A stretch of 64,000 bases of DNA from Tetradesmus obliquus (Eukaryota; Chlorophyta; Chlorophyceae; Sphaeropleales; Scenedesmaceae), in NCBI GenBank assembly GCA_030272155.1, contig CP126193.1, forward strand, positions 5,456,001 to 5,520,000, given 5' to 3'. Under the pieces are notes generated by a model. It ran no database searches and was not told where the DNA came from. It worked only from the letters and a program-made list of their open reading frames with translations. Below are positions 1-63,330 of the stretch, piece by piece. Each line of letters begins with the position of its first letter. Within the stretch, counting starts at the first letter, position 1. Position numbers and translations under genes: made by a program.

Positions 1-3000
1 GATGCCTCCCACTCAACAAGCAGAGTCCACCCAGCTGAACAGCAGCCGCTCCACAAACACCAGCAGAAGGATTGGAGGTGCTGCACTGGCGCTGCTCCTG
101 ACATCCCCACAAAACCCCAGCCATGCTGGTAGCACCGTGTTCCCCAGCAGCAGCATCAAAATCATCTTCCAGATGCCTTTCTGACAGCAATGTAATGTGG
201 TTCAGCAAATACCCAGCAGCTCCACAAACACCAGCAGAACGATTGGAGTTGCCGCACTTGAACTGCTGCTGACCACCCCACAAAACCCCAGCTCAAACAG
301 GCTGTGCCAGCATCACTGTGTTCCCCACCGTCTGCCGTGACACGATCTTACAGATGCCTCCCACTCAACAACCAGAGTCCACTCAGCTGAAAAGCAGCCG
401 CTCCACAAACACCAGGAGAAGGATTGGAGGTGTTGCACTGGCGCTGCTCCTGACATCCTCACAAAAACCCCGCCATGCTGGTAGCACCGTGTTCCCAAGC
501 AGCAGCATCAAAATCATCTTCCAGATGCCTTTCTCACAGCGAAGTAATGTGGTTCAGCAAATACCCAGACGCTCCACAAACACCAGCAGAACGATTGGAG
601 TTGCCGCACTTGAACTGCTGCTGACCACCCCACAAAACCCCAGCTCAAACAGGCTGTGCCAGCATCACTGTGTTCCCCACCGTCTGCCGTGACACGATCT
701 TACAGATGCCTCCCACTCAACAACCAGAGTCCACTCAGCTGAAAAGCAGCCGCTCCACAAACACCAGGAGAAGGATTGGAGGTGTTACACTGGCGCTGCT
801 CCTGACATCCTCACAAAAACCCCGCCATGCTGGTAGCACCGTGTTCCCAAGCAGCAGCATCAAAATCATCTTCCAGATGCCTTTCTCACAGCGAAGTAAT
901 GTGGTTCAGCAAATACCCAGACGCTCCACAAACACCAACAGAACGATTGGAGTTGCCGCACTTGAACTGCTGCTGACCACCCCACAAAACCCCAGCTCAA
1001 ACATGCTGTGCCAGCATCACTGTGATCCCCACCGTCTGCCGTCACACGATCTTATAGATGCCTCCCACACAGTAATTAAGGTCCACCCAGCAGAACAGCA
1101 GCCGCTCCACAAACACCAGCAGAAGGATTGGAGGTGCTGCACTGGCGCTGCTCCTGACATCCCCACAAAACCCCAGCCATGCTGGTAGCACTGTGTTCCC
1201 CAGCAGCAGCATCAAAATCTTCTTTCAGATGCCTTTCTCACAGCAATGTAATGTGGTTCAGCAAATACACAGCCGCTCCACAAACACCAGCAGAACGATT
1301 GGAGTTGCCGCACTTGAACTGCTGCTGACCACCCCACAAAACCCCAGCTCAAACAGGTTGTGCCAGCATCACTGTGTTCCCCACCGTCTGCCGTCACACA
1401 ATCTTACAGATGCCTCCCACTCAACAAGCAGAGTCCACCCAGCTGAACAGCAGCCGCTCCACAAACACCAGCAGAAGGATTGGAGGTGCTGCACTGGCGC
1501 TGCTCCTGACATCCACACAAAACCCCAGCCATGCGGGTAGCACCGTGTTCCCCAGCAGCAGCATCAAAATCATCTTCCAGATGCCTTTCTCACAGCAATG
1601 TAATGTGGTTCAGCAAATACCCAGCCGCTCCACAAACACCAACAGAACGATTGGAGTTGCCGCACTTGAACTGCTGCTGACCACCCCACAAAACCCCAGC
1701 TCAAACAGGCTGTGCCAGCATCACTGTGTTCCCCACCGTCTGCCGTGACACGATCTTACAGATGCCTCCCACTCAACAACCAGAGTCCACTCAGCTGAAA
1801 AGCAGGCGCTCCACAAACACCAGGAGAAGGATTGGAGGTGTTGCACTGGCGCTGCTCCTGACATCCTCACAAAAACCCCGCCATGCTGGTAGCTCCGTGT
1901 TCCCAAGCAGCAGCATCAAAATCATCTTCCAGATGCCTTTCTCACAGCAATGTAATGTGGTTCAGCAAATACCCAGACGCTCCACAAACACCAGCAGAAC
2001 GATTGGAGTTGCCGCACTTGAACTGCTGCTGTCCACCCCACAAAACCCCAGCTCAAACAGGCTGTGCCAGCATCACTGTGTTTTCCACCGTCTGCCGTGA
2101 CACGATCTTACAGATAACTCCCACTCAACAACCAGAGTCCACCCAGCTGAACAACAGCCGCTCCACGAACAACATTAAAACGTTCTTTGCTGACGCACTT
2201 GCGCTGCTGTTGAACTCACGCAAAACCCCAGCTCAAACAGGCTGTGCCAGCATCACTGTGTTCCCCACCGTCTGCCGTCACACGATCTTATAGATGCCTC
2301 CCACTCAACAATTAAGGTCCACCCAGCTGAACAGCAGCCGTTCCACAAACACCAGGGGAAGGATTGGTGGTGCTGCACTGGCGCTGCTCCTGACATCCAC
2401 ACAAAACCCCAGCCATGCTGCTAGCACCGTGATCCCCAGCAGCAGCATCAAAATCATCTTCCAGATGCCTTTCTCACAGCAATGTAATGTGGTTCAGCAA
2501 ATACCCAGCCGCTCCACAAACACCAGCAGAACGATTGGAGTTGCCGCATTTGAACTGCTGCTGACCACCACACAAAACCCCAGCTCAAACAGGCTGTGCC
2601 AGCATCACTGTGTTCCCCACCGTCTGCCGTGACACGATCTCACAGATGCCTCCCACTCAACAACCCGAGTCCACCAAGCTGAACAGCAGCCGCTCCACGA
2701 ACAGCATTACACTGTTCTTTGCTGACGCACTTGCGCTGCTGTTGAACTCACGCAAAACCCCAGCTCAAACATGCTGTGCCAGCATCACTGTGATCCCCAC
2801 CGTCTGCCGTCACACGATCTTATAGATGCCTCCCACACAGTAATTAAGGTCCACCCAGCAGAACAGCAGCCGCTCAACAAACACCAGCAGAAGGATTGGA
2901 GGTGCACTGGCGCTGCTCCTGACATCCCACAAAACCCCAGCCATGCTGGTAGCACTGTGTTCCCCAGCAGCAGCATCAAAATCATCTTTCAGATGCCTTT

Positions 3001-6000
3001 CTCACAGCAATGTAATGTGGTTCAGCAAATACACAGCCGCTCCACAAACACCAGCAGAACGATTGGAGTTGCCGCACTTGAACTGCTGCTGACCACCCCA
3101 CAAAACCCCAGCTCAAACAGGTTGTGCCAGCATCACTGTGTTCCCCACCGTCTGCCGTGACACGATCTTACAGATGCCTCCCACTCAACAAGCAGAGTCC
3201 ACCCAGCTGAACAGCAGCCGCTCCACAAACACCAGCAGAAGGATTGGAGGTGCTGCACTGGCGCTGCTCCTGACATCCACACAAAACCCCAGCCATGCGG
3301 GTAGCACCGTGTTCCCAAGCAGCAGCATCAAAATCATCTTCCAGATGCCTTTCTGACAGCAATGTAATGTGGTTCAGCAAATACCCAGCCGCTCCACAAA
3401 CACCAGCAGAACGATTAGAGTTGCCGCACTCAAACTGCTGCTGACCACCCCACAAAACCCCAGCTCAAACAGGCTGTGCCAGCATCACTGTGTTCCCCAC
3501 CGTCTGCCGTGACACGATCTGATAGATGCCTCCCACACAGCAATTAAGGTCCACTCAGCTGAAAAGCAGCCGCTCCACAAACACCAGGAGAAGGATTGGA
3601 GGTGTTGCACTGGCGCTGCTCCTGACATCCTCACAAAAACCCCGCCATGCTGGTAGCACCGTGTTCCCAAGCAGCAGCATCAAAATCATCTTCCAGATGC
3701 CTTTCTCACAGCAATGTAATGTGGTTCAGCAAATACCCAGCCGCTCCACAAACACCAGCAGAACGATTGATGTTGCCGCACTTGAACTGCTGCTGACCAC
3801 CCCACAAAACCCCAGCTCAAACAGGCTGTGCCAGCATCACTGTGTTCCCCACCGTCTGCCGTGACACGATCTTACAGATGCCTCCCACTCAACAACCAGA
3901 GTCCACCCAGCTGAACAGCAGCCGCTCCACAAACACCAGCAGAAGGATTGGAGGTGCTGCACTGGCGCTGCTCCTGACATCCTCACAAAAACCCCGCCAT
4001 GCTGGTAGCACCGTGTTCCCAAGCAGCAGCATCAAAATCATCTTCCAGATGCCTTTCTGACAGCAATGTAATGTGGTTCAGCAAATACCCAGCCGCTCCA
4101 CAAACACCAGCAGAACGATTAGAGTTGCCGCACTTAAACTGCTGCTGACCACCCCACAAAACCCCAGCTCAAACAGGCTGTGCCAGCATCACTGTGTTCC
4201 CCACCGTCTGCCGTGACACGATCTTATAGATGCCTCCCACACAGCAATTAAGGTCCACCCAGCTGAACAGTAGCCGCTCCACGAACACCAGCAGAAGGAT
4301 TGGAGGTGCTGCACTGGCGCTGCTCCTGACATCCCCACAAAACCCCAGCCATGCTGGTAGCACCGTGTTCCCCAGCAGCAGCATCAAAATCATCTTTCAG
4401 ATGCCTTTCTGACAGCAATGTAATGTGGTTCAGCAAATACCCAGCCGCTCCACAAACACCAGCAGAACGATTGGAGTTGCCGCACTTGAACTGCTGCTGA
4501 CCACCCCACAAAACCCCAGCTCAAACAGGCTGTGCCAGCATCACTGTGTTCCCCACCGTCTGCCGTCACACGATCTTACAGATGCCTCCCACTCAACAAG
4601 CAGAGTCCACCCAGCTGAACAGCAGCCGCTCCACAAACACCAGCAGAAGGATTGGAGGTGCTGCACTGGCGCTGCTCCTGACATCCACACAAAACCCCAG
4701 CCATGCGGGTAGCACCGTGTTCCCCAGCAGCAGCATCAAAATCATCTTCCAGATGCCTTTCTCACAGCAATGTAATGTGGTTCAGCAAATACCCAGCCGC
4801 TCCACAAACACCAACAGAACGATTGGAGTTGCCGCACTTGAACTGCTGCTGACCACCCCACAAAACCCCAGCTCAAACAGGCTGTGCCAGCATCACTGTG
4901 TTCCCCACCGTCTGCCGTGACACGATCTTACAGATGCCTCCCACTCAACAACCAGAGTCCACTCAGCTGAAAAGCAGCCGCTCCACAAACACCAGGAGAA
5001 GGATTGGAGGTGTTGCACTGGCGCTGCTCCTGACATCCTCACAAAAACCCCGCCATGCTGGTAGCACCGTGTTCCCAAGCAGCAGCATCAAAATCATCTT
5101 CCAGATGCCTTTCTCACAGCAATGTAATGTGGTTCAGCAAATACCCAGCCGCTCCACAAACACCAGCAGAACGATTGATGTTGCCGCACTTAAACTGCTG
5201 CTGACCACCCCACAAAACCCCAGCTCAAACAGGCTGTGCCAGCATCACTGTGTTCCCCACCGTCTGCCGTGACACGATCTTACAGATGCCTCCCACTCAA
5301 CAACCAGAGTCCACTCAGCTGAAAAGCAGCCGCTCCACAAACACCAGGAGAAGGATTGGAGGTGTTGCACTGGCGCTGCTCCTGACATCCTCACAAAAAC
5401 CCCGCCATGCTGGTAGCACCGTGTTCCCAAGCAGCAGCATCAAAATCATCTTCCAGATGCCTTTCTCACAGCAATGTAATGTGGTTCAGCAAATACCCAG
5501 CCGCTCCACAAACACCAGCAGAACGATTGATGTTGCCGCACTTAAACTGCTGCTGACCACCCCACAAAACCCCAGCTCAAACAGGCTGTGCCAGCATCAC
5601 TGTGTTCCCCACCGTCTGCCGTGACACGATCTTACAGATGCCTCCCACTCAACAACCAGAGTCCACCCAGCTGAACAGCAGCCGCTCCACAAACACCAGC
5701 AGAAGGATTGGAGGTGCTGCACTGGCGCTGCTCCTGACATCCCCACAAAACCCCAGCCATGCTGGTAGCACTGTGTTCCCCAGCAGCAGCATCAAAATCA
5801 TCTTCCAGATGCCTTTCTCACAGCAATGTAATGTGGTTCAGCAAATACCCAGCCGCTCCACAAACACCAGCAGAACGATTGGAGTTGCCGCACTTGAACT
5901 GCTGCTGACCACCCCACAAAACCCCAGCTCAAACAGGCTGTGCCAGCATCACTGTGTTCCCCACCGTCTGCCGTGACACAATCTTACAGTTGCCTCCCAC

Positions 6001-9000
6001 TCAACAAGCAGAGTCCACCCAGCTGAACATCAGCCGCTCCACAAACCCCAGCAGAAGGATTGGAGGTGCTGCACTGGCGCTGCTCCTGACATCCACACAA
6101 AACCCCAGCCATGCTGGTAGCACCGTGTTCCCCAGCAGCAGCATCAAAATCATCTTTCAGATGCCTTTCTCACAGCAATGTAATGTGGTTCAGCAAATAC
6201 CCAGCCGCTCCACAAACACCAGCAGAACGATTGGAGTTGCCGCACTTGAACTGCTGCTGACCACCCCACAAAACCCCAGCTCAAACAGGCTGTGCCAGCA
6301 TCAGTGTGTTCCCCACCGTCTGCCGTGACACGATCTTACAGTTGCCTTCCACTCAACAACCAGAGTCCACCCAGCTGAACATCAGCCGCTCCACAAACCC
6401 CAGCAGAAGGATTGGAGGTGCTGCACTGGCGCTGCTCCTGACATCCACACGAAACCCCCGCCATGCTGCTAGCACCGTGATCCCCAGCAGCAGCATCAAA
6501 ATCATCTTTCAGATGCCTTTCTCACAGCGAAGTAATGTGGTTCAGCAAATACCCAGCCGCTCCACAAACACCAGCAGAACGATTGGAGTTGCCGCACTTG
6601 TACTGCTGCTGACCACCCCACAAAACCCCAGCTCAAACAGGCTGTGCCAGCATCACTGTGTTCCCCACCGTCTGCCGTGACACGATCTTACAGATGCCTC
6701 CCACTCAACAACCAGAGTCCACCCAGCTGAACAGCAGCCGCTCCACAAACACCAGCAGAAGGATTGGAGGTGCTGCACTGGCGCTGCTCCTGACATCCCC
6801 ACAAAACCCCAGCCATGCTGGTAGCACTGTGTTCCCCAGCAGCAGCATCAAAATCATCTTCCAGATGCCTTTCTCACAGCAATGTAATGTGGTTCAGCAA
6901 ATACCCAGCCGCTCCACAAACACCAGCAGAACGATTGGAGTTGCCGCACTTGAACTGCTGCTGACCACCCCACAAAACCCCCAGCTCAAACAGGCTGTGC
7001 CAGCATCACTGTGTTCCCCACCGTCTGCCGTGACACGATCTTACAGATACCTCCCACTCAACAACCAGAGTCCACCCAGCTGAACAGCAGCCGCTCCATG
7101 AACAGCATTAAAACGTTCTTTGCTGACGCACTTGCGCTGCTGTTGAACTCACGCAAAACCCCAGCTCAAACATGCTGTGCCAGCATCCCTGTTACACCCA
7201 CCGTCTGCCGTCACACGATCTTATAGATGCCTCCCACAGAGTAATTAAGGTCCACCCAGCAGAACAGCAGCCGCTCCACAAACACCAGCAGAAGGATTGG
7301 AGGTTTACTGGCGCTGCTCCTGACATCCACACAAAACCCCAGCCATGCTGGTAGCACCGTGTTCCCCAGCAGCAGCATCAAAATCATCTTCCAGATGCCT
7401 TTCTCACAGCAATGTAATGTGGTTCAGCAAATACCCAGCCGCTCCACAAACACCAACAGAACGATTGGAGTTGCCGCACTTGAACTGCTGCTGACCACCC
7501 CACAAAACCCCCAGCTCAAACAGGCTGTGCCAGCATCACTGTGTTCCCCACCGTCTGCCGTGACACGATCTTACAGATAACTCCCACTCAACAACCAGAG
7601 TCCACCCAGCTGAACAGCAGCCGCTCCATGAACAGCATTAAAACGTTCTTTGCTGACGCACTTGCGCTGCTGTTGAACTCACGCAAAACCCCAGCTCAAA
7701 CATGCTGTGCCAGCATCCCTGTTACACCCACCGTCTGCCGTCACACGATCTTATAGATGCCTCCCACAGAGTAATCAAGGTCCACCCAGCAGAACAGCAG
7801 CCGCTCCACAAACACCAGCAGAAGGATTGGAGGTTTACTGGCGCTGCTCCTGACATCCACACAAAACCCCAGCCATGCTGGTAGCACCGTGTTCCCCAGC
7901 AGCAGCATCAAAATCATCTTCCAGATGCCTTTCTCACAGCAATGTAATGTGGTTCAGCAAATACCCAGCCGCTCCACAAACACCAACAGAACGATTGGAG
8001 TTGCCGCACTTGAACTGCTGCTGACCACCCCACAAAACCCCCAGCTCAAACAGGCTGTGCCAGCATCACTGTGTTCCCCACCGTCTGCCGTGACACGATC
8101 TTACAGATAACTCCCACTCAACAACCAGAGTCCACCCAGCTGAACAACAGCCGCTCAATGAACAGCATTAAAACGTTCTTTGCTGACGCACTTGCGCTGC
8201 TGTTGAACTCACGCAAAACCCCAGCTCAAACATGCTGTGCCAGCATCCCTGTTATCCCCACCGTCTGCCGTCACACGATCTTATAGATGCCTCCCACAGA
8301 GTAACTAAGGTCCACCCAGCAGAACAGCAGCCGCTCCACAAACACCAGCAGAAGGATTGGAGGTGCACTGGCGCTGCTCCTGACATCCACACAAAACCCC
8401 AGCCATGCTGGTAGCACTGTGTTCCCCAGCAGCAGCATCAAAATCATCTTTCAGATGCCTTTCTCACAGCAATGTAATGTGGTTCAGCAAATACCCAGCC
8501 GCTCCACAAACACCAGCAGAACGATTGGAGTTGCCGCACTTGAACTGCTGCTGACCACCCCACAAAACCCCAGCTCAAACAGGCTGTGCCAGCATCACTG
8601 TGTTCCCCACCGTCTGCCGTCACACAATCTTACAGATGCCTCCCACTCAACAAGCAGAGTCCACCCAGCTGAACAGCAGCCGCTCCACAAACACCAGCAG
8701 AAGGATTGGAGGTGCACTGGCGCTGCTCCTGACATCCACACAAAACCCCAGCCATGCTGGTAGCACTGTGTTCCCCAGCAGCAGCATCAAAATCATCTTT
8801 CAGATGCCTTTCTCACAGCAATGTAATGTGGTTCAGCGAATACCCAGCCGCTCCACAAACACCAACAGAACGATTGGAGTTGCCGCACTTGAACTGCTGC
8901 TGACCACCCCACAAAACCCCAGCTCAAACAGGTTGTGCCAGCATCACTGTGTTCCCCACCGTCTGCCGTCACACAATCTTACAGGTGCCTCCCACTCAAC

Positions 9001-12000
9001 AAGCAGAGTCCACCCAGCTGAACAGCAGCCGCTCCACAAACACCAGCAGAAGAATTGGAGGTGCTGCACTGGCGCTGCTCCTGACATCCACACAAAACCC
9101 CAGCCATGCTGCTAGCACCGTGATCCCCAGCAGCAGCATCAAAATCATCTTCCAGATGCCTTTCTCACAGCAATGTAATGTGGTTCAGCAAATACCCAGC
9201 CGCTCCACAAACACCAGCAGAACGATTGGAGTTGCCGCATTTGAACTGCTGCTGACCACCCCACAAAACCCCCAGCTCAAACAGGCTGTGCCAGCATCAC
9301 TGTGTTCCCCACCGTCTGCCGTGACACGATCTCACAGATGCCTCCCACTCAACAACCCGAGTCCACCCAGCTGAACAGCAGCCGCTCCACGAACAGCATT
9401 ACACTGTTCTTTGCTGACGCACTTGCGCTGCTGTTGAACTCACGCAAAACCCCAGCTCAAACATGCTGTGCCAGCATCACTGTGATCCCCACCGTCTGCC
9501 GTCACACGATCTTATAGATGCCTCCCACACAGTAATTAAGGTCCACCCAGCAGAACAGCAGCCGCTCAACAAACACCAGCAGAAGGATTGGAGGTGCACT
9601 GGCGCTGCTCCTGACATCCCCACAAACCCCAGCCATGCTGGTAGCACTGTGTTCCCCAGCAGCAGCATCAAAATCTTCTTTCAGATGCCTTTCTCACAGC
9701 AATGTAATGTGGTTCAGCAAATACCCAGCCGCTCCACAAACACCAGCAGAAAGATTGGAGTTGCCGCACTTGAACTGCTGCTGACCACCCCACAAAACCC
9801 CCAGCTCAAACAGGCTGTGCCAGCATCACTGTGTTCCCCACCGTCTGCCGTGACACGATCTTACAGATAACTCCCACTCAACAACCAGAGTCCACCCAGC
9901 TGAACAGCAGCCGCTCCATGAACAGCATTAAAACGTTCTTTGCTGACGCACTTGCGCTGCTGTTGAACTCACGCAAAACCCCAGCTCAAACATGCTGTGC
10001 CAGCATCCCTGTTACACCCACCGTCTGCCGTCACACGATCTTATAGATGCCTCCCACAGAGTAATTAAGGTCCACCCAGCAGAACAGCAGCCGCTCCACA
10101 AACACCAGCAGAAGGATTGGAGGTTTACTGGCGCTGCTCCTGACATCCACACAAAACCCCAGCCATGCTGGTAGCACCGTGTTCCCCAGCAGCAGCATCA
10201 AAATCATCTTCCAGATGCCTTTCTCACAGCAATGTAATGTGGTTCAGCAAATACCCAGCCGCTCCACAAACACCAACAGAACGATTGGAGTTGCCGCACT
10301 TGAACTGCTGCTGACCACCCCACAAAACCCCCAGCTCAAACAGGCTGTGCCAGCATCACTGTGTTCCCCACCGTCTGCCGTGACACGATCTTACAGATAA
10401 CTCCCACTCAACAACCAGAGTCCACCCAGCTGAACAACAGCCGCTCAATGAACAGCATTAAAACGTTCTTTGCTGACGCACTTGCGCTGCTGTTGAACTC
10501 ACGCAAAACCCCAGCTCAAACATGCTGTGCCAGCATCCCTGTTATCCCCACCGTCTGCCGTCACACGATCTTATAGATGCCTCCCACAGAGTAATTAAGG
10601 TCCACCCAGCAGAACAGCAGCCGCTCCACAAACACCAGCAGAAGGATTGGAGGTGCACTGGCGCTGCTCCTGACATCCACACAAAACCCCAGCCATGCTG
10701 GTAGCACTGTGTTCCCCAGCAGCAGCATCAAAATCATCTTTCAGATGCCTTTCTCACAGCAATGTAATGTGGTTCAGCAAATACCCAGCCGCTCCACAAA
10801 CACCAGCAGAACGATTGGAGTTGCCGCACTTGAACTGCTGCTGACCACCCCACAAAACCCCAGCTCAAACAGGCTGTGCCAGCATCACTGTGTTCCCCAC
10901 CGTCTGCCGTCACACAATCTTACAGATGCCTCCCACTCAACAACCAGAGTCCACCCAGCTGAACAGCAGCCGCTCCACAAACACCAGCAGAAGGATTGGA
11001 GGTGCACTGGCGCTGCTCCTGACATCCACACAAAACCCCAGCCATGCTGGTAGCACTGTGTTCCCCAACAGCAGCATCAAAATCATCTTTCAGATGCCTT
11101 TCTCACAGCAATGTAATGTGGTTCAGCGAATACCCAGCCGCTCCACAAACACCAGCAGAACGATTGGAGTTGCCGCACTTGAACTGCTGCTGACCACCCC
11201 ACAAAACCCCAGCTCAAACAGGTTGTGCCAGCATCACTGTGTTCCCCACCGTCTGCCGTCACACAATCTTACAGGTGCCTCCCACTCAACAAGCAGAGTC
11301 CACCCAGCTGAACAGCAGCCGCTCCACAAACACCAGCAGAAGAATTGGAGGTGCTGCACTGGCGCTGCTCCTGACATCCACACAAAACCCCAGCCATGCT
11401 GCTAGCACCGTGATCCCCAGCAGCAGCATCAAAATCATCTTCCAGATGCCTTTCTCACAGCAATGTAATGTGGTTCAGCAAATACCCAGCCGCTCCACAA
11501 ACACCAGCAGAACGATTGGAGTTGCCGCATTTGAACTGCTGCTGACCACCCCACAAAACCCCAGCTCAAACAGGCTGTGCCAGCATCACTGTGTTCCCCA
11601 CCGTCTGCCGTGACACGATCTCACAGATGCCTCCCACTCAACAACCCGAGTCCACCCAGCTGAACAGCAGCCGCTCCACGAACAACATTAAAACGTTCTT
11701 TGCTGACGCACTTGCGCTGCTGTTGAACTCACGCAAAACCCCAGCTCAAACATGCTGTGCCAGCATCACTGTGATCCCCACCGTCTGCCGTCACACGATC
11801 TTATAGATGCCTCCCACACAGTAATTAAGGTCCACCCAGCAGAACAGCAGCCGCTCAACAAACACCAGCAGAAGGATTGGAGGTGCACTGGCGCTGCTCC
11901 TGACATCCCCACAAAACCCCAGCCATGCTGGTAGCACTGTGTTCCCCAGCAGCAGCATCAAAATCATCTTTCAGATGCCTTTCTCACAGCAATGTAATGT

Positions 12001-15000
12001 GGTTCAGCAAATACCCAGCCGCTCCACAAACACCAGCAGAACGATTGGAGTTGCCGCACTTGAACTGCTGCTGACCACCCCACAAAACCCCAGCTCAAAC
12101 AGGTTGTGCCAGCATCACTGTGTTCCCCACCGTCTGCCGTCACAAAATCTTACAGATGCCTCCCACTCAACAAGCAGAGTCCACCCAGCTGAACAGCAGC
12201 CGCTCCACAAACACCAGCAGAAGGATTGGAGGTGCTGCACTGGCGCTGCTCCTGACATCCACACAAAACCCCAGCCATGCGGGTAGCACCGTTTTCCCCA
12301 GCAGCAGCATCAAAATCATCTTTCAGATGCCTTTCTCACAGCAATGTAATGTGGTTCAGCAAATACCCAGCCGCTCCACAAACACCAACAGAACGATTGG
12401 AGTTGCCGCACTTGAACTGCTGCTGACCACCCCACAAAACCCCAGCTCAAACAGGCTGTGCCAGCATCACTGTGTTCCCCACCGTCTGCCGTGACACGAT
12501 CTTACAGATGCCTCCCACTCAACAACCAGAGTCCACTCAGCTGAAAAGCAGCCGCTCCACAAACACCAGGAGAAGGATTGGAGGTGTTGCACTGGCGCTG
12601 CTCCTGACATCCACACAAAACCCCAGCCATGCTGGTAGCACCGTGTTCCCCAGCAGCAGCATCAAAATCATCTTTCAGATGCCTTTCTCACAGCAATGTA
12701 ATGTGGTTCAGCAAATACCCAGCCGCTCCACAAACACCAGCAGAACGATTGGAGTTGCCGCACTTGAACTGCTGCTGACCACCCCACAAAACCCCAGCTC
12801 AAACAGGCTGTGCCAGCATCAGTGTGTTCCCCACCGTCTGCCGTGACACGATCTTACAGTTGCCTTCCACTCAACAACCAGAGTCCACCCAGCTGAAAAG
12901 CAGCCGCTCCACAAACCCCAGCAGAAGGATTGGAGGTGCTGCACTGGCGCTGCTCCTGACATCCACACAAAACCCCCCCCATGCTGGTAGCACCGTGTTC
13001 CCCAGCAGCAGCATCAAAATCATCTTCCAGATGCCTTTCTCACAGCAATGTAATGTGGTTCAGCAAATACCCAGCCGCTCCACAAACACCAGCAGAACGA
13101 TTGGAGTTGCCGCACTTGAACTGCTGCTGACCACCCCACAAAACCCCAGCTCAAACAGGCTGTGCCAGCATCACTGTGTTCCCCACCGTCTGCCGTGACA
13201 CGATCTTACAGATGCCTCCCACTCAACAACCCGAGTCCACCCAGCTGAACGGCAGCCGCTCCACGAACAGCATTAAAACGTTCTTTGCTGACGCACTTGC
13301 GCTGCTGTTGAACTCACGCAAAACCCCAGCTCAAACATGCTGTGCCAGCATCACTGTGTTCCCCACCGTCTGCCCTGACACGATCTTAGAGATGCCTCCC
13401 ACACAGCAATTAAGGTCCACCCAGCTGAACGGCAGCCGCTCCACGAACAACATTAAAACGTTCTTTGCTGACGCACTTGCGTTGCTGTTGAACTCACGCA
13501 AAACCCCAGCTCAAACAGGCTGTGCCAGCATCACTGTGTTCCCCACCGTCTGCCCTGACACGATCTTAGAGATGCCTCCCACACAGCAATTAAGGTCCAC
13601 CCAGCTGAACAGCAGCCGCTCCACGAACACCAGCAGAAGGATTGGAGGTGCTGCACTGGCGCTGCTCCTGACATGCCCACAAAACCCCAGCCATGCTGGT
13701 AGCACCGTGTTCCCCAGCAGCAGCATCAAAATCATCTTCCAGATGCCTTTCTGACAGCAATGTAATGTGGTTCAGCAAATACCCAGCCGCTCCACAAACA
13801 CCAGCAGAACGATTGGAGTTGCCGCACTTGAACTGCTGCTGACCACCCCACAAAACCCCAGCTCAAACAGGCTGTGCCAGCATCACTGTGTTCCCCACCG
13901 TCTGCCGTGACACGATCTTACAGATGCCTCCCACTCAACAACCAGAGTCCACTCAGCTGAAAAGCAGCCGCTCCACAAACACCAGGAGAAGGATTGGAGG
14001 TGTTGCACTGGCGCTGCTCCTGACATTCTCACAAAAACCCCGCCATGCTGGTAGCACCGTGTTCCCAAGCAGCAGCATCAAAATCATCTTCCAGATGCCT
14101 TTCTCACAGCGAAGTAATGTGGTTCAGCAAATACCCAGACGCTCCACAAACACCAGCAGAACGATTGGAGTTGCCGCACTTGAACTGCTGCTGACCACCC
14201 CACAAAACCCCAGCTCAAACAGGCTGTGCCAGCATCAGTGTGTTCTCCACCGTCTGCCGTGACACGATCTTACAGATGCCTCCCACTCAACAACCAGAGT
14301 CCACTCAGCTGAAAAGCAGCCGCTCCACAAACACCAGGAGAAGGATTGGAGGTGTTGCACTGGCGCTGCTCCTGACATCCTCACAAAAACCCCGCCATGC
14401 TGGTAGCACCGTGTTCCCAAGCAGCAGCATCAAAATCATCTTCCAGATGCCTTTCTGACAGCAATGTAATGTGGTTCAGCAAATACCCAGCCGCTCCACA
14501 AACACCAGCAGAACGATTGGAGTTGCCGCACTTGAACTGCTGCTGACCACCCCACAAAACCCCAGCTCAAACAGGCTGTGCCAGCATCACTGTGTTCCCC
14601 ACCGTCTGCCGTGACACGATCTTACACGTGCCTCCCACTCAACAACCAGAGTCCACCCAGCTGAACAGCAGCCGCTCCACAAACCCCAGCAGAAGGGTTG
14701 GAGGTGCTGCACTGGCGCTGCTCCTGACATCCACACAAAACCCCCGCCATGCTGGTAGCACCGTGTTCCCCAGCAGCAGCATCAAAATCATCTTTCAGAT
14801 GCCTTTCTCACAGCAATGTAATGTGGTTCAGCAAATACTCAGCCGCTCCACAAACACCAGCAGAACGATTGGAGTTGCCGCACTTGTACTGCTGCTGACC
14901 ACCCCACAAAACCCCAGCTCAAACAGGCTGTGCCAGCATCACTGTGTTCCCCACCGTCTGCCGTGACACGATCTTACAGATGCCTCCCACTCAACAACCA

Positions 15001-15110
15001 GAGTCCACCCAGCTGAACAGCAGCCGCTCCACGAACAGCATTGAAACGTTCTTTGCTGACGCACTTGCGCTGCTGTTGAACTCACGCAAAACCCCAGCTG
15101 AAACTTGCTT
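1..15110. repeat. Satellite array of A, B and C monomers
   Basis: Head-to-tail tandem repeat filling the left quarter of the window and running off its edge. Three related monomers can be told apart. A (about 171 bp, e.g. 351-521) starts CAGATGCCTCCCACTCAAC. B (about 181 bp, e.g. 522-702) starts CAGATGCCTTTCTCACAGC. C (about 180 bp, e.g. 2111-2290) carries CATTAAAACGTTCTTTGCTG in its middle. All share an anchor near CCGCTCCACAAACACCAGCA and, in B and C, a tail near CCCACCGTCTGCCGT. Most of the array is AB dimers with a 352-bp period, mixed with CAB trimers of about 530 bp. Copies differ by scattered substitutions and small indels. Because 352 is not a multiple of three, the many 60-190 residue open frames are by-products and shift frame at each unit, so I do not call them genes. 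The monomer size is close to a nucleosome repeat, as in many centromeric or subtelomeric satellites; that role is inference. Confidence 0.95.
7541..12120. repeat. Tandem pair of a 2,290-bp higher-order satellite unit
   Basis: Within the satellite, 7541-9830 and 9831-12120 are two copies of a 13-monomer unit with order CAB-CAB-AB-AB-CAB. Landmarks repeat at a constant 2,289-2,290 bp offset (7702/9992, 7889/10179, 8071/10361, 8419/10709, 8600/10890, 8949/11239, 9302/11591, 9463/11752). The copies share private variants, such as the GTTACACCCACCGTC form of C, and differ at few positions, so this large unit was duplicated more recently than the dimers arose. One further CAB trimer of the same subtype precedes it at 7011-7540. 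Confidence 0.85.
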
Positions 15111-55075: not shown

Positions 55076-55166
<91 letters not shown>

Positions 55167-56861
55167 GACAAACACATTTACGCCAGCGCACTGCTTTCTG
55201 TGTGTCATGGCTGGTTTTCAGATATTTTGTGTATGCGCCGCTCAGGCCTGGTGTATATACAAGGTTGTCAATACTCAGTTATATTGTGGGATGTGTGCAC
55301 ATGCTGTTGGCGGCATGTGCAGGCAGAGTCCTGCAAAGGGTTGCACTCATCAACCAGCCGCTGATGTGCCGCACACTTCAGGCTGTTGCAGCTGCACATG
55401 TCTAATGCTTGGCAATTAAGCATTGCCTTGTATGCATGTCAAGTCATGCTGCTGTAAGTCAGGCTTGTGTCCAGGCCCAACCGGAGCCTGTTGTGTTCCG
55501 TGCACTGCCAGCTGGGGCTTTGCAGCGATCGTCATGTGTTCTCTTTGTATGTGCACATACCATGTGGTGCAATACGCAGCCGTGCGATACAGTTGGGTTG
55601 TTTAATTCAGCACGGACTGAATGGCGTGTAACTGGCATGTGTCTGACACGGCATACCAGCAAGGAACCAGGGTCTATGTATCATGGCAAGAGTCGCAGCG
55701 TTTGGGAGATGAGTGAATCTGATGCAGTCTGGCACAATGATGGTTTCCTACAGCGCTGTGTGTTCTGACAGCATCACGTCAAGTCAACGTATCCGGTGAT
55801 AGCAACACTGGTGTAAATTTGGAACAGCACCCTGTGCAACATGACCCTTCCCGAAGTACAACCACATGCAGCGTTCAAAGGCAATCTTCACATCACCGTT
55901 TTTGATGTCTGCTGTATGACCACCAATGCAATTAGCAGATGTTAACTCACCAGTAGCAACATGATCAGCAGTGTCACTGCACAACAGCAGCAGTGCTGCA
56001 GTTGGAGCACCCTGTGTGGCTGGCTAGCTTATCCAGATGTTCTAGGTGCACCTTCTTCTGCCTGCGCTTTTGTTTCTTAGTCCTCGGAGCTGGGCCCAGC
56101 CAAGTTCACACCACTGGCTTAAAAAGGTCACTGTCACTCGGCACTGACAAGATCTGTGCGGGTGCCTTCGTAAAGTCTGCAGCAGCAGCTGCAGTTTATT
56201 CTGTCGTGAACTACGCAACTTTCTTTGGAAGTCGCTTGCGCTGTAGGCGTACGCATATCAGGCCTGCCTTCCAGGTTCAGGAGGAAGCTTTTGGGCTCAC
56301 ACTGCTCGCAGCTCTCCCTACGGTCCGTGCTGCACTTGAACCAATGCCATTGTGCATTTCTACATGTTGATAGAGCAAGCTCACCACGGATCAACTGCAC
56401 AGTCTGTCCAGCTCCGTGCTACTGGTGCTGCCGTGCCTGTGATCCGAACAGGGACTTCAGACGTGTACACCATCCACTAACGCTGCGATAATGTTACTAA
56501 CACTTGTTTTGCGCTACAGCGGACTTGCCACCTGTGCCATACGCACCGTCGGACTCCCAGCTACCCTTTCAACCACCATGGGCCTCACTGTCAGGTGCGA
56601 CAGTATAGCCTGCGCGAACTAAACGCAAATTTGCCGTGTGGTGTTTCAGTTGGACCGCAGCGGCACCGCTGAGCGGTTTGTTTGTGCACTTGACCGTAAG
56701 CAGCACTGCTGTGTCACCAAGGACACCTGCCTGCGGCATGACAACAGCCCTACTGGCAGCTGCTCCAGCAACCGCACCTCCCTCTTCAAGTTAACTTCTC
56801 CCACCCATCTCGGTTGACATGACCGTGCTACACACCTGCTACTGCTGCTCGCAGCACCAAC
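54273..56861. other. Long intergenic region, no gene resolved
   Basis: Contains the CDCA7-like 3' flank and a long TG microsatellite. On the - strand, 56.45-55.79 kb has fragments that look translated (TKKQKRRQKKVHLEHLDKLA near 56.07 kb, and GGHTADIKNGDVKIAFERC near 55.9 kb) but no exon chain or family was recognised; a decayed gene or transposon is possible. On the + strand, 56518-56592 (LPPVPYAPSDSQLPFQPPW) follows an acceptor-like CTACAG and may be an upstream exon of the P450 gene. Confidence 0.45.
55077..55165 (+). repeat. TG dinucleotide microsatellite
   Basis: About 44 uninterrupted TG units. The bases on either side are diverged copies of each other (ACAAACAC ... GCCAGC-CACTGCT before it at about 55050-55076 and after it at about 55168-55195), so the tract seems to have grown within a small duplication. 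Confidence 0.95.
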
Positions 56862-58401
56862 ATGGGTGTGCCAGATGTGCATGATGCCAGGGACCTTCCA
56901 AGGGAGGTGCTGGCCCTGCAGGCAACCAGCCCCGCCACCTTTGCAGTTACTGCACTTGATGGTCATCGTTTTGCGTGGGTGAAGCCTGCAGGGCCGGCCG
57001 GGCCTGAGCAGTTGATTGTGGCAGACCCGGCCACGCTGCAGAGCTGGATGAAGGACGAGTGGAAGATTGGCTCTGTGACAGGCTGGCCAGACACAATCGG
57101 TGAGTGCAAGATTGGTGCAGGACATAGCTGCACTAAAGTGTGATTGTTTGTGTTTCACGAGGCAGGGAAGCTGCCACCATCATGTGTGTTGTGTTGCGCA
57201 AAGTGTGGTGCTTTGCTGCTGGCGGTGCGTGCATTGGCAGTGTCAGCCATTGGGAGGCCAGACGGCCTGCTGCAGGAAAGCTTGCAGCAGAAGCAGCAGC
57301 AGCAGCAGCAGCAGCGCTGATCATCACTGTTGCATGCAGCATGGTAGAATAACAACGCTGTTTCTCTTCACTTCTCGCTCGCTGTGCAGGCCAGCTGCTG
57401 GGCCCTGAGGCAATGGCCAACACTCGCAGCGCAGAGCAGCACCAGCGCCTGCGGCAGCTCTTCTCGCCCATGCTGCGCGATGACAGCATGGCGCGCATGC
57501 TGCCCAAAATCCAGGGCAGCGTGCAGCGCTACATGCGCGAGTGGGCTGCCAAGGGAACAGTGCCTGCTTACACTGAGACACTCACGCTGGTTTTTGATGT
57601 GCTGGTGCGTTGCTTTGTTGTCATTTAGTTTGGAGAGCTGCGGCTACTGTGCACGGGCTTGCTGCAGGCCTGAGAGATGCCTGTCGGGTGTTGGTGCAGC
57701 TGCTTCTCACTGTCTGTGTGGGGAGTGCACGGGCTGGCCGTACCTGCCCACATCTGCACAGGCCAGTGCTGTCCCTGAAGCTGTTGGTTGAAGTTGCACA
57801 GCAGCCAGCGCCATGCTACTGCAACCACAGCTGCATTTGTTGAATGGCTGTCACGCCCTCTCACACCTGCTGTCACGCCTGGCCATGCCTGCAGGTGAAC
57901 CAGGCGATGCAGCTGGACTGGCCTGATGCAGACATCAAGAAGTACGCGGTGCTGTTTGAGGTGTGGAACCAGGGCTTCACACCAAGCACTGCAGACCCTC
58001 GCTGGGCCAAGGGCATGGAGGCGCGGTGAGGCCGGCTGGCTGGACACAGACACAGCTGTTTTGGTTGGCTATACACAGCTGATTGAGCAGTGCTTCGCTG
58101 CTGTGAGAGGCTGCAGGCAGGATCAGCCAGTTGATGCCCCTAGGCTCCTGTGCGTGGTTGCTGTACAGCCTCCCAAGCATGAGCAGCGCTGCCTGCAGTG
58201 CAGACGCCGCATCCATGTTGTGCCGTGACGCAAAGTAGCAGGCAAGGCAAACCTATGCAGCACAGGCTATGCTCATGTTTAACACCCTTCAACGGCCGCT
58301 GCGGCATCTGTACACATCCACCTGCAGCGTGCAGCTGGTCGCGCGCTTCAGGCGATGCGGCATGCAAAGCCAGATGACGCATCAATCCCCTCACCTTCCA
58401 C

Positions 58402-58449
<48 letters not shown>

Positions 58450-60320
58450 ACTCGCCTGCCTGCAGGAAGGAGCTGGTCGCGCGCTTCAGGAGCGCCGTCA
58501 GCGACCCGCGCCTGCCGCCCGGCTCCATCCCAGCCACGCTGCGTGACGAGTACGGCGCAGAGAGCGATGTTGTTACTGACAACCTGATCATGGTGCTGTT
58601 TGCCGGCTTTGAGACCAGCACCAGCCTCACCGTGCGGCTGCTGTATGAGCTGGCCAAGCACCCCGACGCGCTGCAGAAGGTGCGGCGATAACTGTGCTTT
58701 GATGACCATCAGCTTCAGTTGTCATGCATGTTTTGCATATTTGTATGCGCAACAGCTTTCTGTGTGTTTCGGTGTGTGCGTCTATCTGCTTGCATATCAA
58801 CACGCACAGCAGGTAGCTGGGGCGGTGCAGCACAAGCAATCAAGAGTCGGAGGCGCAACAGTCCAGTGGAGCATGCTGTGACAACGCCATAGCTCATATA
58901 GCGCTGCGCTTGTTGCAGGGCCGCCCAGCTTACTACTTATCAAACCGTGTGATGGCTGACAGCCGCATCCCCTGCTGCTTGCTGGTGCTAAATCCTCTGC
59001 CCTTTGCTGTATACTCCTGTCCGCGCCTGTGCAGCTGCGTGCGGAGCAGCAGGCAGTGGCTGCCAAGCACGTCCCCACGCTGGGCCTCAAGGCGCTGGGG
59101 GCCATGACCTACACAGAGGCAGCCATCAGCGAGGCGCTGCGCCTGGGGCAGGTGCGGCATACAACAATGCCACGGCTTTGAAGCCTTGCGGCTAGCAGGT
59201 GCATTGCGAGATTTGCTGCGACTGCAGTATTGTAGTGCTTGCAGCACTGAGAAGGTAGGCAGCCATGCATCTGATTGCATTTGTGTGCCCACACACCGTG
59301 TGACACAACCATCTTGCTTTATGGCAGCGCTGGGCGCCATGACCTACACAGAGGCAGCCATTAGCGAGGCGCTGCGCCTGGGGCAGGTGGGCATTGTGAT
59401 GAGCAACTGCAAAAATATATTGCCGCGGCTGTGTATGTGGGGTGCTTGGGGCAGTAGAAGTGAGGCTGCCCAACGCCTACACGCCACCTGACTCTGTCAT
59501 TGATTGTATTGCCGCAGATGGTGGCCAGCGTGCCTCGCATTGCCACCAAGCCACCAAGGCCACCGCGCGCGCAGCCAGTTGTTGCTGCTTAACAAAACCA
59601 ACCTCCTGGCTGTGCTGCCTTCCTGTGTTGTTTAACCCATGCAGATGGTGGCCAACGTGCCGGGCATTGCCACCAAGGCCGTCGAGACGCCCTGCGCCCC
59701 ACCAGTGCCTGCCGGCTGTCGTTGCCCTGCTGCTGAACGCTTTCCTGCGGAATCTCTTGCTGCTCTGCCTCGCTGTGTTGTTTAAACCGCATATGGTGGC
59801 CAACGTGCCGCGCATTGCCACTAAGGCCACCAAGCCACCAAGGCCACCGCGCGCGCCGCCAGTTGTTGCTGCTTGACGAAACCAACCTCCTGGGTGCGCT
59901 GCCTTGCCAATTTTGTCACAGATGGTGGCCAACGTGCCTCGCGTTGCCACCAAGGCCATTGAGACACCCCGCGCGCCACCAGTGCCCGCCGGCTGCCCCT
60001 TCTCAGCCAGCTGGGCCGGCCAAAGTGTGCTGGACCCCGCGGTTCAGGGCTCAACAACCGCCTTCAACCCCGATCGCTGGCTGGACAAGCGCAACAAAGC
60101 CAGCCTCAAGCTGCACCAGACTCCTTTCGGCTACGGCACACACAGCTGCCTGGGCTGGCGCATTGCGCGCGCTGTGGCAGCAGCAGTGGCTCAGGAGCTG
60201 GCGCTGGCGTATGAGCTGTCAGCGGAGACTGACGCGGCCTGGGATGACTTCCCCACAGGCAGCAGGCCTGCGAATGAGCTGCCGCTGAGCCTGAAGCCGC
60301 TGGCAGCTTCTGCGCAGTGA
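56862..60320 (+). CDS. Cytochrome P450, CYP85-clan-like
   Basis: Supported exons: 56862-57099, 57390-57604, 57895-58025, 58466-58679, 59035-59151 and 59922-60320, with agreeing phases, 437 residues. Hallmarks in order: WPDTIGQLLGPEAM then HQRLRQLFSPM (helix C region, CYP26-like), the I-helix oxygen-activation motif AGFETSTS, E-x-x-R in SEALRLG (K helix), FNPDRWLD (PERF region) and the haem loop FGYGTHSCLG with the cysteine ligand. Such enzymes insert oxygen into lipids, sterols or carotenoid-derived molecules; the substrate is unknown. The model lacks the usual N-terminal membrane anchor and first ~60-80 residues, so ATG 56862 is probably inside a longer first exon or preceded by one. Introns contain exon copies (58333, 59328, 59518-59921), and the 3' end is repeated downstream. 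A TGTAA lies at 60609. Confidence 0.9.
58333..58352 (+). repeat. Exon fragment copy before P450 exon 4
   Basis: Twenty bases, AGCTGGTCGCGCGCTTCAGG, identical to 58471-58490 in the real exon. It also follows a CTGCAG-containing stretch, as the real exon does. Confidence 0.75.
58404..58449 (+). repeat. CTG run before a 3' splice site
   Basis: About 15 CTG units ending 16 bases before the acceptor of the P450 exon at 58466. Confidence 0.9.
59328..59386 (+). repeat. Partial second copy of P450 exon 5
   Basis: Matches the last part of exon 5 (59093-59151) with two or so differences and would encode LGAMTYTEAAISEALRLGQ, including the E-x-x-R motif. It has its own CAG acceptor (59325-59327) and a GTGGGC donor. 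At 59 nt it does not keep phase if added between exons 5 and 6. Confidence 0.8.
59518..59921 (+). repeat. Three extra copies of the P450 last-exon start
   Basis: The opening of the last exon (59922, ATGGTGGCCAACGTGCC) also occurs at 59518, 59644 and 59793. Copies 1 and 3 resemble each other (PRIATK then PPRPPRA, PVVAA and a stop), and copies 2 and 4 resemble each other, so a unit of about 275 bp carrying two copies was duplicated. Copies 1 and 2 follow GCAG acceptors (CCGCAG, ATGCAG); copy 3 has CGCAT instead. Using copy 1 would end the protein before the haem loop. Confidence 0.85.
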
Positions 60321-60750
60321 AACTGCTGGCAGCTGCTGCGCAGTGCACATGAGGTGGCTTGCGCAGGTGTACACAAGTGAGCTGGCAGCACAGCCAGCTA
60401 TGCATGCCAAGCAGACGCAGAGACGGAGGCGCAGAAAGAAACGGCGGCAGCAGTGTCTCAGGAGCTAGCGCTGGCGTATGAGCTGTCAGCGCAGACTGAC
60501 GCGGCCTTTGACGACTTCCCTACTGGCAGCAGGCCTGCGAGTGAGCTGCCGCTGATCCTGAAGCCTATGCAAGCTGCTGCGCAGTGACCATGAGGTGGCT
60601 TGCGCAATTGTAAACAAGAGAGGCAGCAGGGCATCCAGCTTTGCAACTGCTTGGTGGGCGCTGAGCCTGAAGCCGCTGCCAGCTGCGCAGTGACCGTGAG
60701 GCGGCTTGCGCAATTGTACACAAAGGAGTCAGCAGCGCGGCCAGCTATGC
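60181..60750 (+). repeat. Tandem copies of the P450 3' end
   Basis: 60181 onward (last about 46 codons plus 3' bases) recurs from 60448, offset 267 bp, still open: QELALAYELSAQTDAAFDDF and GSRPASELPLILKP, ending at TGA 60585-60587. A third, shorter copy covers about 60659-60750. A CAG precedes the second copy, so it could serve as an alternative last exon, but this is not shown. Confidence 0.8.
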
Positions 60751-61803
60751 ACCTGCCTGGCCAGCGGGCACAAAAGACAGAAACACAGCAGAAGCAGGAA
60801 GTGCTGGTTGTGGCCACAAACTTCCGTGTCAGTGATGGTAAGCCCTGATGTTGGCATGGGAGCCCCTTTCGTGTGACCCCCGCGTGACTTTGCAGGAGGT
60901 TGCAGACAATGATGGTGCTTGCTCTGCCAGGAAAACACCTTGGCTGGGCCAGACCCTGGCTAGCTGTTGAGAGAGGCGAGGCGCATGGGGATGCGAACCA
61001 CAACATAGCTGCAGCAAGGCGATGCAGGCTGGTGGGTTGATGCTATGGCTTGATGGGTAACATGATGGTGAACAGAGCTGCAGCTGAGCGATGCAGGCTG
61101 GTGACTGCTGTGACTGCTTGCAGCGCCCGCTTGCACTAAACGGTGCAGGCTGGTGGCTGGCTGTGCAAGCAGCCTTTCAGCACATCAACACAAGATCCTG
61201 GACTGGTGGGCCACAGCTGCTCATGCATGTGCTGTATGGGAAATGGCATGTGGCTGAGCAGTGCAGGGTTGGGCTTTGTTCACAGGCTTCCATGTCATTG
61301 TACGGAGGCATTTGGCAAAATGCTGCAGTTGTCTTGTGGCAACTCACGACAGACGTGTTGTTGATGTGGGCAGCTTTTTGAAGTGTGATCCAGTGTACTT
61401 TGTTTGAAGCATGTACCACAGGACAGTTTTGTACTCGTGATGCTGCCATGAGCACAAGGTGGGCGAAGTATGCTCGCATGAGCTGCCTACTTCATTTGCC
61501 GTTGATTGGCCTCAGACGTAATGGCTAAGCAGCAGTGGATTACCTGCAGCACGTACCATTGATTAGGGCAAGTTCTTTCTGATGACACAGCAGAACCAGG
61601 TGTCAGGCGGCCTTGATCACCAGCCTGAGGAACACTTGTGTGCGCGTCCATTTGGAGCATGCATGTTGTTTGGCTTGATAGCCCAACTTGAGCTACCTTC
61701 AAGGTTTCAAAGTTGCATCAGATAACAGATGTTGGCCAAGAGCTTGCCATGCCTGAGGGCCGATGTGCATTATTTGATGAGTCGACCTGTGCTAATCCTG
61801 CAG

Positions 61804-63119: not shown

Positions 63120-63330
63120 CCACTTGCGCAGCAGTGCCATGCTGCCCCTGCATGCTGCCCTTGCGTGTTGTGCCGCAAGCATGTTGTGGACCCTGCTGCT
63201 CATGGTGCACGCTGCAACCATCACCAGCATGTTGAGTCCAGTGCACTGCCTTCACTTGCGCAGCAGCGCCAACCATCACCAGCACGTTGAGTCCAGTGCA
63301 CTGCCTTCACTTGTGCAGCAGCACCAGGCC
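63120..63330. repeat. Copies of the edge gene's 3' end
   Basis: Two tandem 55-bp units (63216-63270, 63271-63325) and a further piece at 63121-63140 contain CACTTGCGCAGCAG, which on the - strand is the final codons and stop of the gene ending at 63402 (LALLRK-stop). Confidence 0.75.

Follow-up and report, generated by a model that had tools for sequence, protein, structure and literature searches.

The cytochrome P450 gene examined here carries, in the intron behind its K-helix exon, extra copies of the ends of both flanking exons, and this raises the question of whether the copies could serve as a switch to an inactive form of the enzyme or are relics of past duplications. The window, i.e., the whole 64,000-nucleotide stretch that was analysed, corresponds to C3:5456001-5520000 of a 104.66-Mb genome in 17 contigs. 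All six introns in the gene model (Table 1) are bordered by GT and AG and the frame is open. The encoded 445-aa protein matched the Pfam p450 family with an E value of 1.5e-31 (110 bits against a cut-off of 22.8), and its nearest solved relative by sequence was 2ve3, a 'putative cytochrome P450 120' (E 2.4e-17). An ExxR motif and a haem-cysteine motif are marks of cytochrome P450, and both are present, in exon 6 and exon 7, respectively.

Table 1. Features of the P450 gene and of the exon copies in and around it (window positions).
Feature	Position	Strand	Remarks
P450 gene	56578..60320	+	7 exons (first uncertain), 445 aa
Exons 1-4	56578-56594 (uncertain), 56855-57099, 57390-57604, 57895-58025	+	gene model
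Exons 5-7	58466-58679, 59035-59151, 59922-60320	+	gene model
Exon 6	59035..59151	+	K-helix ExxR (EALR), donor CAG/GTGCGG
Functional last exon	59922..60320	+	PRVAT, FNPDRW, haem FGYGTHSCLG; weak acceptor TCACAG
770-nt intron with exon copies	59152..59921	+	between exon 6 (ExxR) and last exon
Exon 6 tail copy (partial, 59 nt)	59328..59386	+	AG before, donor GTGGGC at 59387
Last-exon head copy 1	59518..59594	+	acceptor CCGCAG; in-frame stop after 24 residues
Last-exon head copy 2	59645..59718	+	acceptor ATGCAG; open for 46 residues, then stop
Last-exon head copy 3	59793..59875	+	acceptor lost (CAT)
Spacer S1 between heads	59581..59641	+	resembles S2 (59719-59789) and S3 (59865-59918)
32-nt partial copy of exon start (58459-58490, exon 58466-58679)	58321..58352	+	88%, weakest; in preceding intron
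Copy of the gene's 3' end (60176-60320)	60443..60587	+	89%
Further 3'-end-region copy (of 60550-60654)	60659..60760	+	82%

The preliminary description of this DNA had reported an extra partial exon with both splice signals, numbered there as a copy of exon 5, and this element was confirmed at 59328-59386, with an AG at 59326-59327 and the donor CAG/GTGGGC at 59387, although in the present seven-exon model its parent is exon 6. Alignment of the exon 6 tail with the copy (59092-59160 versus 59327-59394) gave 95.7% identity over 69 columns (E 1e-24), and the 60 exonic bases of the pair are 97% alike with two differences, both synonymous; two synonymous and no other changes are too few for judging constraint. 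The copied segment also spans nine intron bases past the donor (59152-59160). The same description had counted three extra starts of the last exon, and heads of this exon do lie at 59518, 59645 and 59793, the third of them with CAT in place of CAG and so with an unusable acceptor. Its two-copy unit of about 275 bp was borne out by the spacing, which is 275 bp from copy 1 to copy 3 and 277 bp from copy 2 to copy 4 (the real exon), and the step-wise tandem duplication that it proposed holds for the head array, where heads 1 and 2 with the spacer between them match heads 3 and 4 (59512-59718 versus 59787-59995, 82.5% over 217 columns, E 3e-58), which indicates that a pair was duplicated. Heads 1 and 3 are 94% alike across 80 nt, heads 2 and 4 share 68 of 77 bases, and heads 1 and 4 agree in 59 of 78 columns. 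The head array shows decay, with a stop in head 1 and the AG gone from head 3, and head 2 has the PR of the exon altered to PG; the exon 6 tail copy shows no such decay, being 97% intact with both splice signals kept.

Spacer S1 had no match in the flanking intron or in the following exon, and a genome search with 59575-59650, which skips very common words, returned only this segment itself and the S3 copy; the likeness of S2 to S3 is weak, its score being reached by 15 of 300 shuffles. The intron piece after the tail copy aligned to that after exon 6 with a local score of 20.5. Of 2102 control pieces, none reached this score in one direction and two in the other, and the global score was reached by 0 and 7 of them. 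These controls are suggestive of common descent, but plain shuffles discriminate poorly, since all 100 were beaten by four of the 20 other intron pairs in the gene as well. If the two pieces are homologous, they are far more diverged than the 97% exon copy, so simple decay is no explanation, and conversion or constraint would be needed for the exon part to have stayed 97% alike while the intron drifted.

The extra copies that had been placed between the real exons are indeed there, and they belong to a wider set that includes copies elsewhere in the same gene (last three rows of Table 1). Other repeats were seen in and beside the window. The start of the window (1-15098) is taken up by a long tandem array whose period is about 352 bp, a long GT/TG dinucleotide run lies between genes at about 55077-55166, and a scan of 15.2-63.9 kb gave one further pair, a 57-nt repeat (95%, 55 bp apart) at 63215-63326. 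Past the window's end, at C3:5525809-5527090, is a tandem array with a 70-bp period that is mostly more than 99% alike.

Ten isoforms of the gene were written out from its sequence. Among these ten, the 59151-59922 junction alone yields both the ExxR and the haem motif; skipping of exon 6 keeps the haem motif and loses ExxR, and the other eight, of which seven use copy splice sites and one retains the intron, end ahead of the haem motif with 278 to 359 aa; the 359-aa protein arises from use of head copy 2. The earlier proposal that copy 1 would give a protein ending before the haem cysteine agreed with its predicted product of 337 aa, which stops ahead of the haem motif. Use of the tail copy as an exon adds the four residues RWAP and then a stop, so that its inclusion would end the protein prematurely.

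The splice signals were scored with a matrix trained on the P450 genes of the window, contig C10 and contig C2, which supplied 14 acceptors and 14 donors once the acceptor 59922 and the donor 59152 had been set aside; this matrix is crude, its training introns having been read from frames in three related genes. Within the intron, the acceptor at 59518 scored 8.2 (rank 3 of 41 AGs), that at 59645 4.5 (rank 7 of 41) and that at 59328 4.0 (rank 8 of 41), and the functional acceptor at 59922 scored -3.4 (rank 22 of 41), below every one of the 14 training acceptors when these were left out in turn (-2.9 to 13.1). The tail-copy donor at 59387 reached 9.7 (rank 2 of 46), beside 10.2 for the real donor at 59152. 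Given the weakness of the 59922 acceptor relative to that of copy 1, the gene might mainly yield something other than the enzyme. The AGs at 59245 and 59228, which have no exon copy behind them, outrank all the decoys, so a high matrix score is by itself no prediction of use.

The age of the intron bears on how the copies arose. The closest paralogue, at C10:596538-599289 (44% identity over query positions 257-421), reads through the intron position without an intron. In the P450 gene at C2:3507427-3510645, an intron lies 1 nt away from that of the window gene, 8 rather than 9 nt past the ExxR arginine codon and in phase 2 rather than phase 0; its position was read from frame and splice words, and the distances taken from the sequences give the two genes an equal total distance to the next conserved arginine. 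These positions are best read as those of one old intron that would have slid by 1 nt and been lost in the C10 gene, which is the simpler account.

Local direct repeats were then sought by blastn (at least 40 nt, 80% identity, less than 1.5 kb apart, E < 1e-6, dust on) in a non-random sample of 49 regions comprising 27 P450, five aldehyde-dehydrogenase (ALDH) and 16 short-chain-dehydrogenase (SDR) regions and the window gene. The P450 regions came from the best 30 of 94 matches of one search and from two further searches; for ALDH and SDR, every listed match was used (13 and 19, respectively). Local repeats occurred in 17 of 27 P450 regions (12.1% of 99.6 kb), four of five ALDH regions (12.4% of 23.2 kb) and nine of 16 SDR regions (7.7% of 56.4 kb), that is, in 30 of these 48 regions. 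They cover 15.3% of the 5 kb round the window P450 gene, a share which, set against 7.7-12.4%, makes this gene typical of the sample. The window gene thus exemplifies something that happens often in the sampled genes and is no special device. The process is not uniform, as the same recipe found no local repeat between 15.2 and 55.5 kb of the window, a span of 40.3 kb; the 1-15098 array, 55.5-56 kb, 61-64 kb and the 10 kb beyond the window's end with the 70-bp array were left out of this comparison. The ten repeat-free P450 regions include the C10 and C2 genes.

An exon multiplication specific to P450 genes was ruled out by the repeats in ALDH and SDR regions. Simple head-to-tail duplication was likewise rejected as the general mechanism, since the repeat fills at least 90% of the spacing in only four of 88 non-redundant copy pairs; this count excludes 15 of 153 raw matches, in nine regions, whose copies overlap and which are true head-to-tail arrays, so that arrays and spaced copies both occur. 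An architecture like that of the window gene was found in a P450 gene on the minus strand of C8 (3939993-3940999), where an acceptor with a head of about 150 nt begins at 3940999, 3940503 and 3940248 and the full exon at 3939993, and where each head copy runs into a new pyrimidine-rich stretch and acceptor. These I-helix head copies, at least three of them extra, follow in 255-bp steps apart from a first step of 496 bp with a variant copy between, and several of them, including a variant copy, lie within one 511-aa open frame. K-helix exons look duplicated also at C13:2312342 and C8:3936861.

The 88 pairs (54 from P450, 18 from ALDH, 13 from SDR regions and three from the window gene) were then compared at their edges and within. 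In 16 of the 88 pairs both copies had a donor-like word at the right edge, compared with one pair on the opposite strand and three for the middle of the copies; an acceptor-like word stood at the left edge of both in 19, against five and 15; and either splice-like edge was shared in 34, against six and 17. The donor result is clear; for acceptors this holds only in the comparison with the opposite strand. The 733 mismatches, counted in pairs with three or more, fall preferentially into one codon phase (425 compared with 356 +- 7.5, reached in 0 of 2000 shuffles), which indicates that the copied pieces are mostly coding. Omega, estimated with a simple codon model, was 0.31 for all 88 pairs, 0.25 for the 57 frame-confident pairs and again 0.25 (bootstrap 0.18-0.33) for the 54 of these without a stop, a set which mixes in-frame exon copies with decoys and from which 31 pairs were dropped for an uncertain frame and three for a stop, a selection that favours a low omega. 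In 120 simulations with one neutral copy, omega ranged from 0.27 to 0.69 and always exceeded 0.25, although on average only 36-37 of 57 pairs survived in the simulated counts, so that the observed and simulated sets do not match in full. Gaps of a length not divisible by three, which speak against coding use of both copies, were carried by 11 of the 54 pairs (18 of 88 overall), and omega was 0.31 in these 11 and 0.23 (0.17-0.31) in the 43 pairs without such gaps. As far as they go, these alignments hint at constraint on both members of the average sampled pair, and the data suggest that many copies elsewhere in the sample may not be mere relics.

Taking the locus as a whole, we consider it likely that the copies are relics, left by several local duplications that spanned splice junctions, with possible leaky use. 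In each such event, a segment of roughly 60-280 bp holding an exon end and its splice junction would have been copied into the intron next to it; the enzyme would arise from the 59151-59922 junction alone, and the copies would as a rule be spliced out with the rest of the intron. Acceptors survive in copies 1 and 2 and a good donor in the tail copy, so a fraction of the transcripts probably uses the copies and ends as unproductive mRNA, as a tolerated leak rather than a designed switch. Of the two outcomes considered in the preliminary description, relics are thus the better supported, by the incompleteness of the copies, the stop in copy 1, the missing AG of copy 3, the 59-nt length of the tail copy and the loss of the haem cysteine in all seven isoforms that use a copy; the switch gained no positive support. 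Since the decoy splice sites persist, a regulated switch to an inactive form would be possible but is unsupported. Counting against relics are the omega of 0.25 in the 54 sampled pairs, the 97% identity of the tail copy and the weak 59922 acceptor. The last two of these, set beside a decoy donor of 9.7 and a decoy acceptor of 8.2 (59518) against -3.4 and the merely synonymous changes of the tail copy, would also fit regulated unproductive splicing, in which the enzyme level might be tuned by the tail copy as a poison exon, by competition between the tandem acceptors, or by both. We regard such regulation as unlikely, as copy 3 has lost its AG and copies 1 and 2 have decayed, as AGs without any exon copy outrank the decoys in a matrix from 14 introns of three genes, and as similar copies in many other sampled genes mean that no special role is needed.

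Among accounts of origin, a recent gain of the intron by tandem duplication of exonic sequence (the AGGT model), with the copies as birth marks, was favoured once the C10 paralogue proved intronless at the position, and the repetition of exon sequence within the intron fits it too. It was weakened by the C2 intron 1 nt away, for which a slid old intron is simpler, and the nine intron bases past the donor in the tail copy show that the intron predates the copy, which leaves a recent gain improbable. The relics proposed above would also be mimicked by an assembly that had set diverged haplotypes or mis-joined reads side by side, and exon parts more alike than intron parts are indeed what alleles would give; up to four serial copies in nested order with differing divergence and spacers, and similar repeats in many regions on many contigs, make such an artefact very unlikely. 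Hardest of all to credit is a tandem exon duplication on the way to mutually exclusive exons, the copies being or having been alternative versions of the K-helix region. The in-frame head array at C8 and the omega of the 54 frame-confident pairs, below the simulations with one neutral copy, are in its favour, but the window gene has no complete exon copy, its 59-nt tail copy breaks the frame, heads 1 and 2 run into stops and give truncated isoforms, and 11 of 54 pairs carry gaps that are not multiples of three.

On the reading of the copies as relics, the gene shows an intron growing out of its own flanking exon ends, with decoy splice sites kept. If the wider pattern holds in gene models, against a random background and in RNA, copies from 99% identity down to decayed remnants could be compared within one genome, a natural series in which to watch exon duplication, decoy sites and intron growth or sliding and to measure whether copies are ever used. 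A bolder reading, which we hold to be doubtful, is that the genome may be rich in copies of exon ends with their junctions (arrays of acceptor and head, or of tail and donor), a large share of them constrained as coding and with both copies used in some transcripts, and that the window P450 might be a competing-acceptor gene whose stronger decoys set the enzyme level. A literature search, which drew on parts of its sources, found no earlier report of such a redundant or competing layer of half-exons. The genome-wide pattern is a lead worth following.

Several known systems resemble parts of this picture. As with poison exons, inclusion of the tail copy would bring a premature stop, four residues into the predicted exon. 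With intron gain by tandem duplication, as set out in the portions of that literature considered here, the locus has in common duplicated exon sequence in or beside an intron and new splice sites; it differs in that the segments copied already hold intron bases and that another P450 has an intron at a near-identical position. Near intron pairs and intron sliding are discussed in PMC2891723, of which excerpts were used, and the window and C2 introns, 1 nt apart, are of this kind; duplicated acceptors could shift an intron border. Intragenic tandem exon duplication, as treated in the sections of PMC9013439 consulted, is similar in having exon sequence repeated in its own gene and some unannotated copies intronic. 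There, intragenic homologues at 80% identity exist for about 2% of exonic bases in human and 0.06-0.08% in worm and fly, compared with 8-12% of all bases in the gene regions sampled here, a different measure that allows a rough contrast only. Where that work deals with whole exons, many of the copies described here are exon halves with one splice site.
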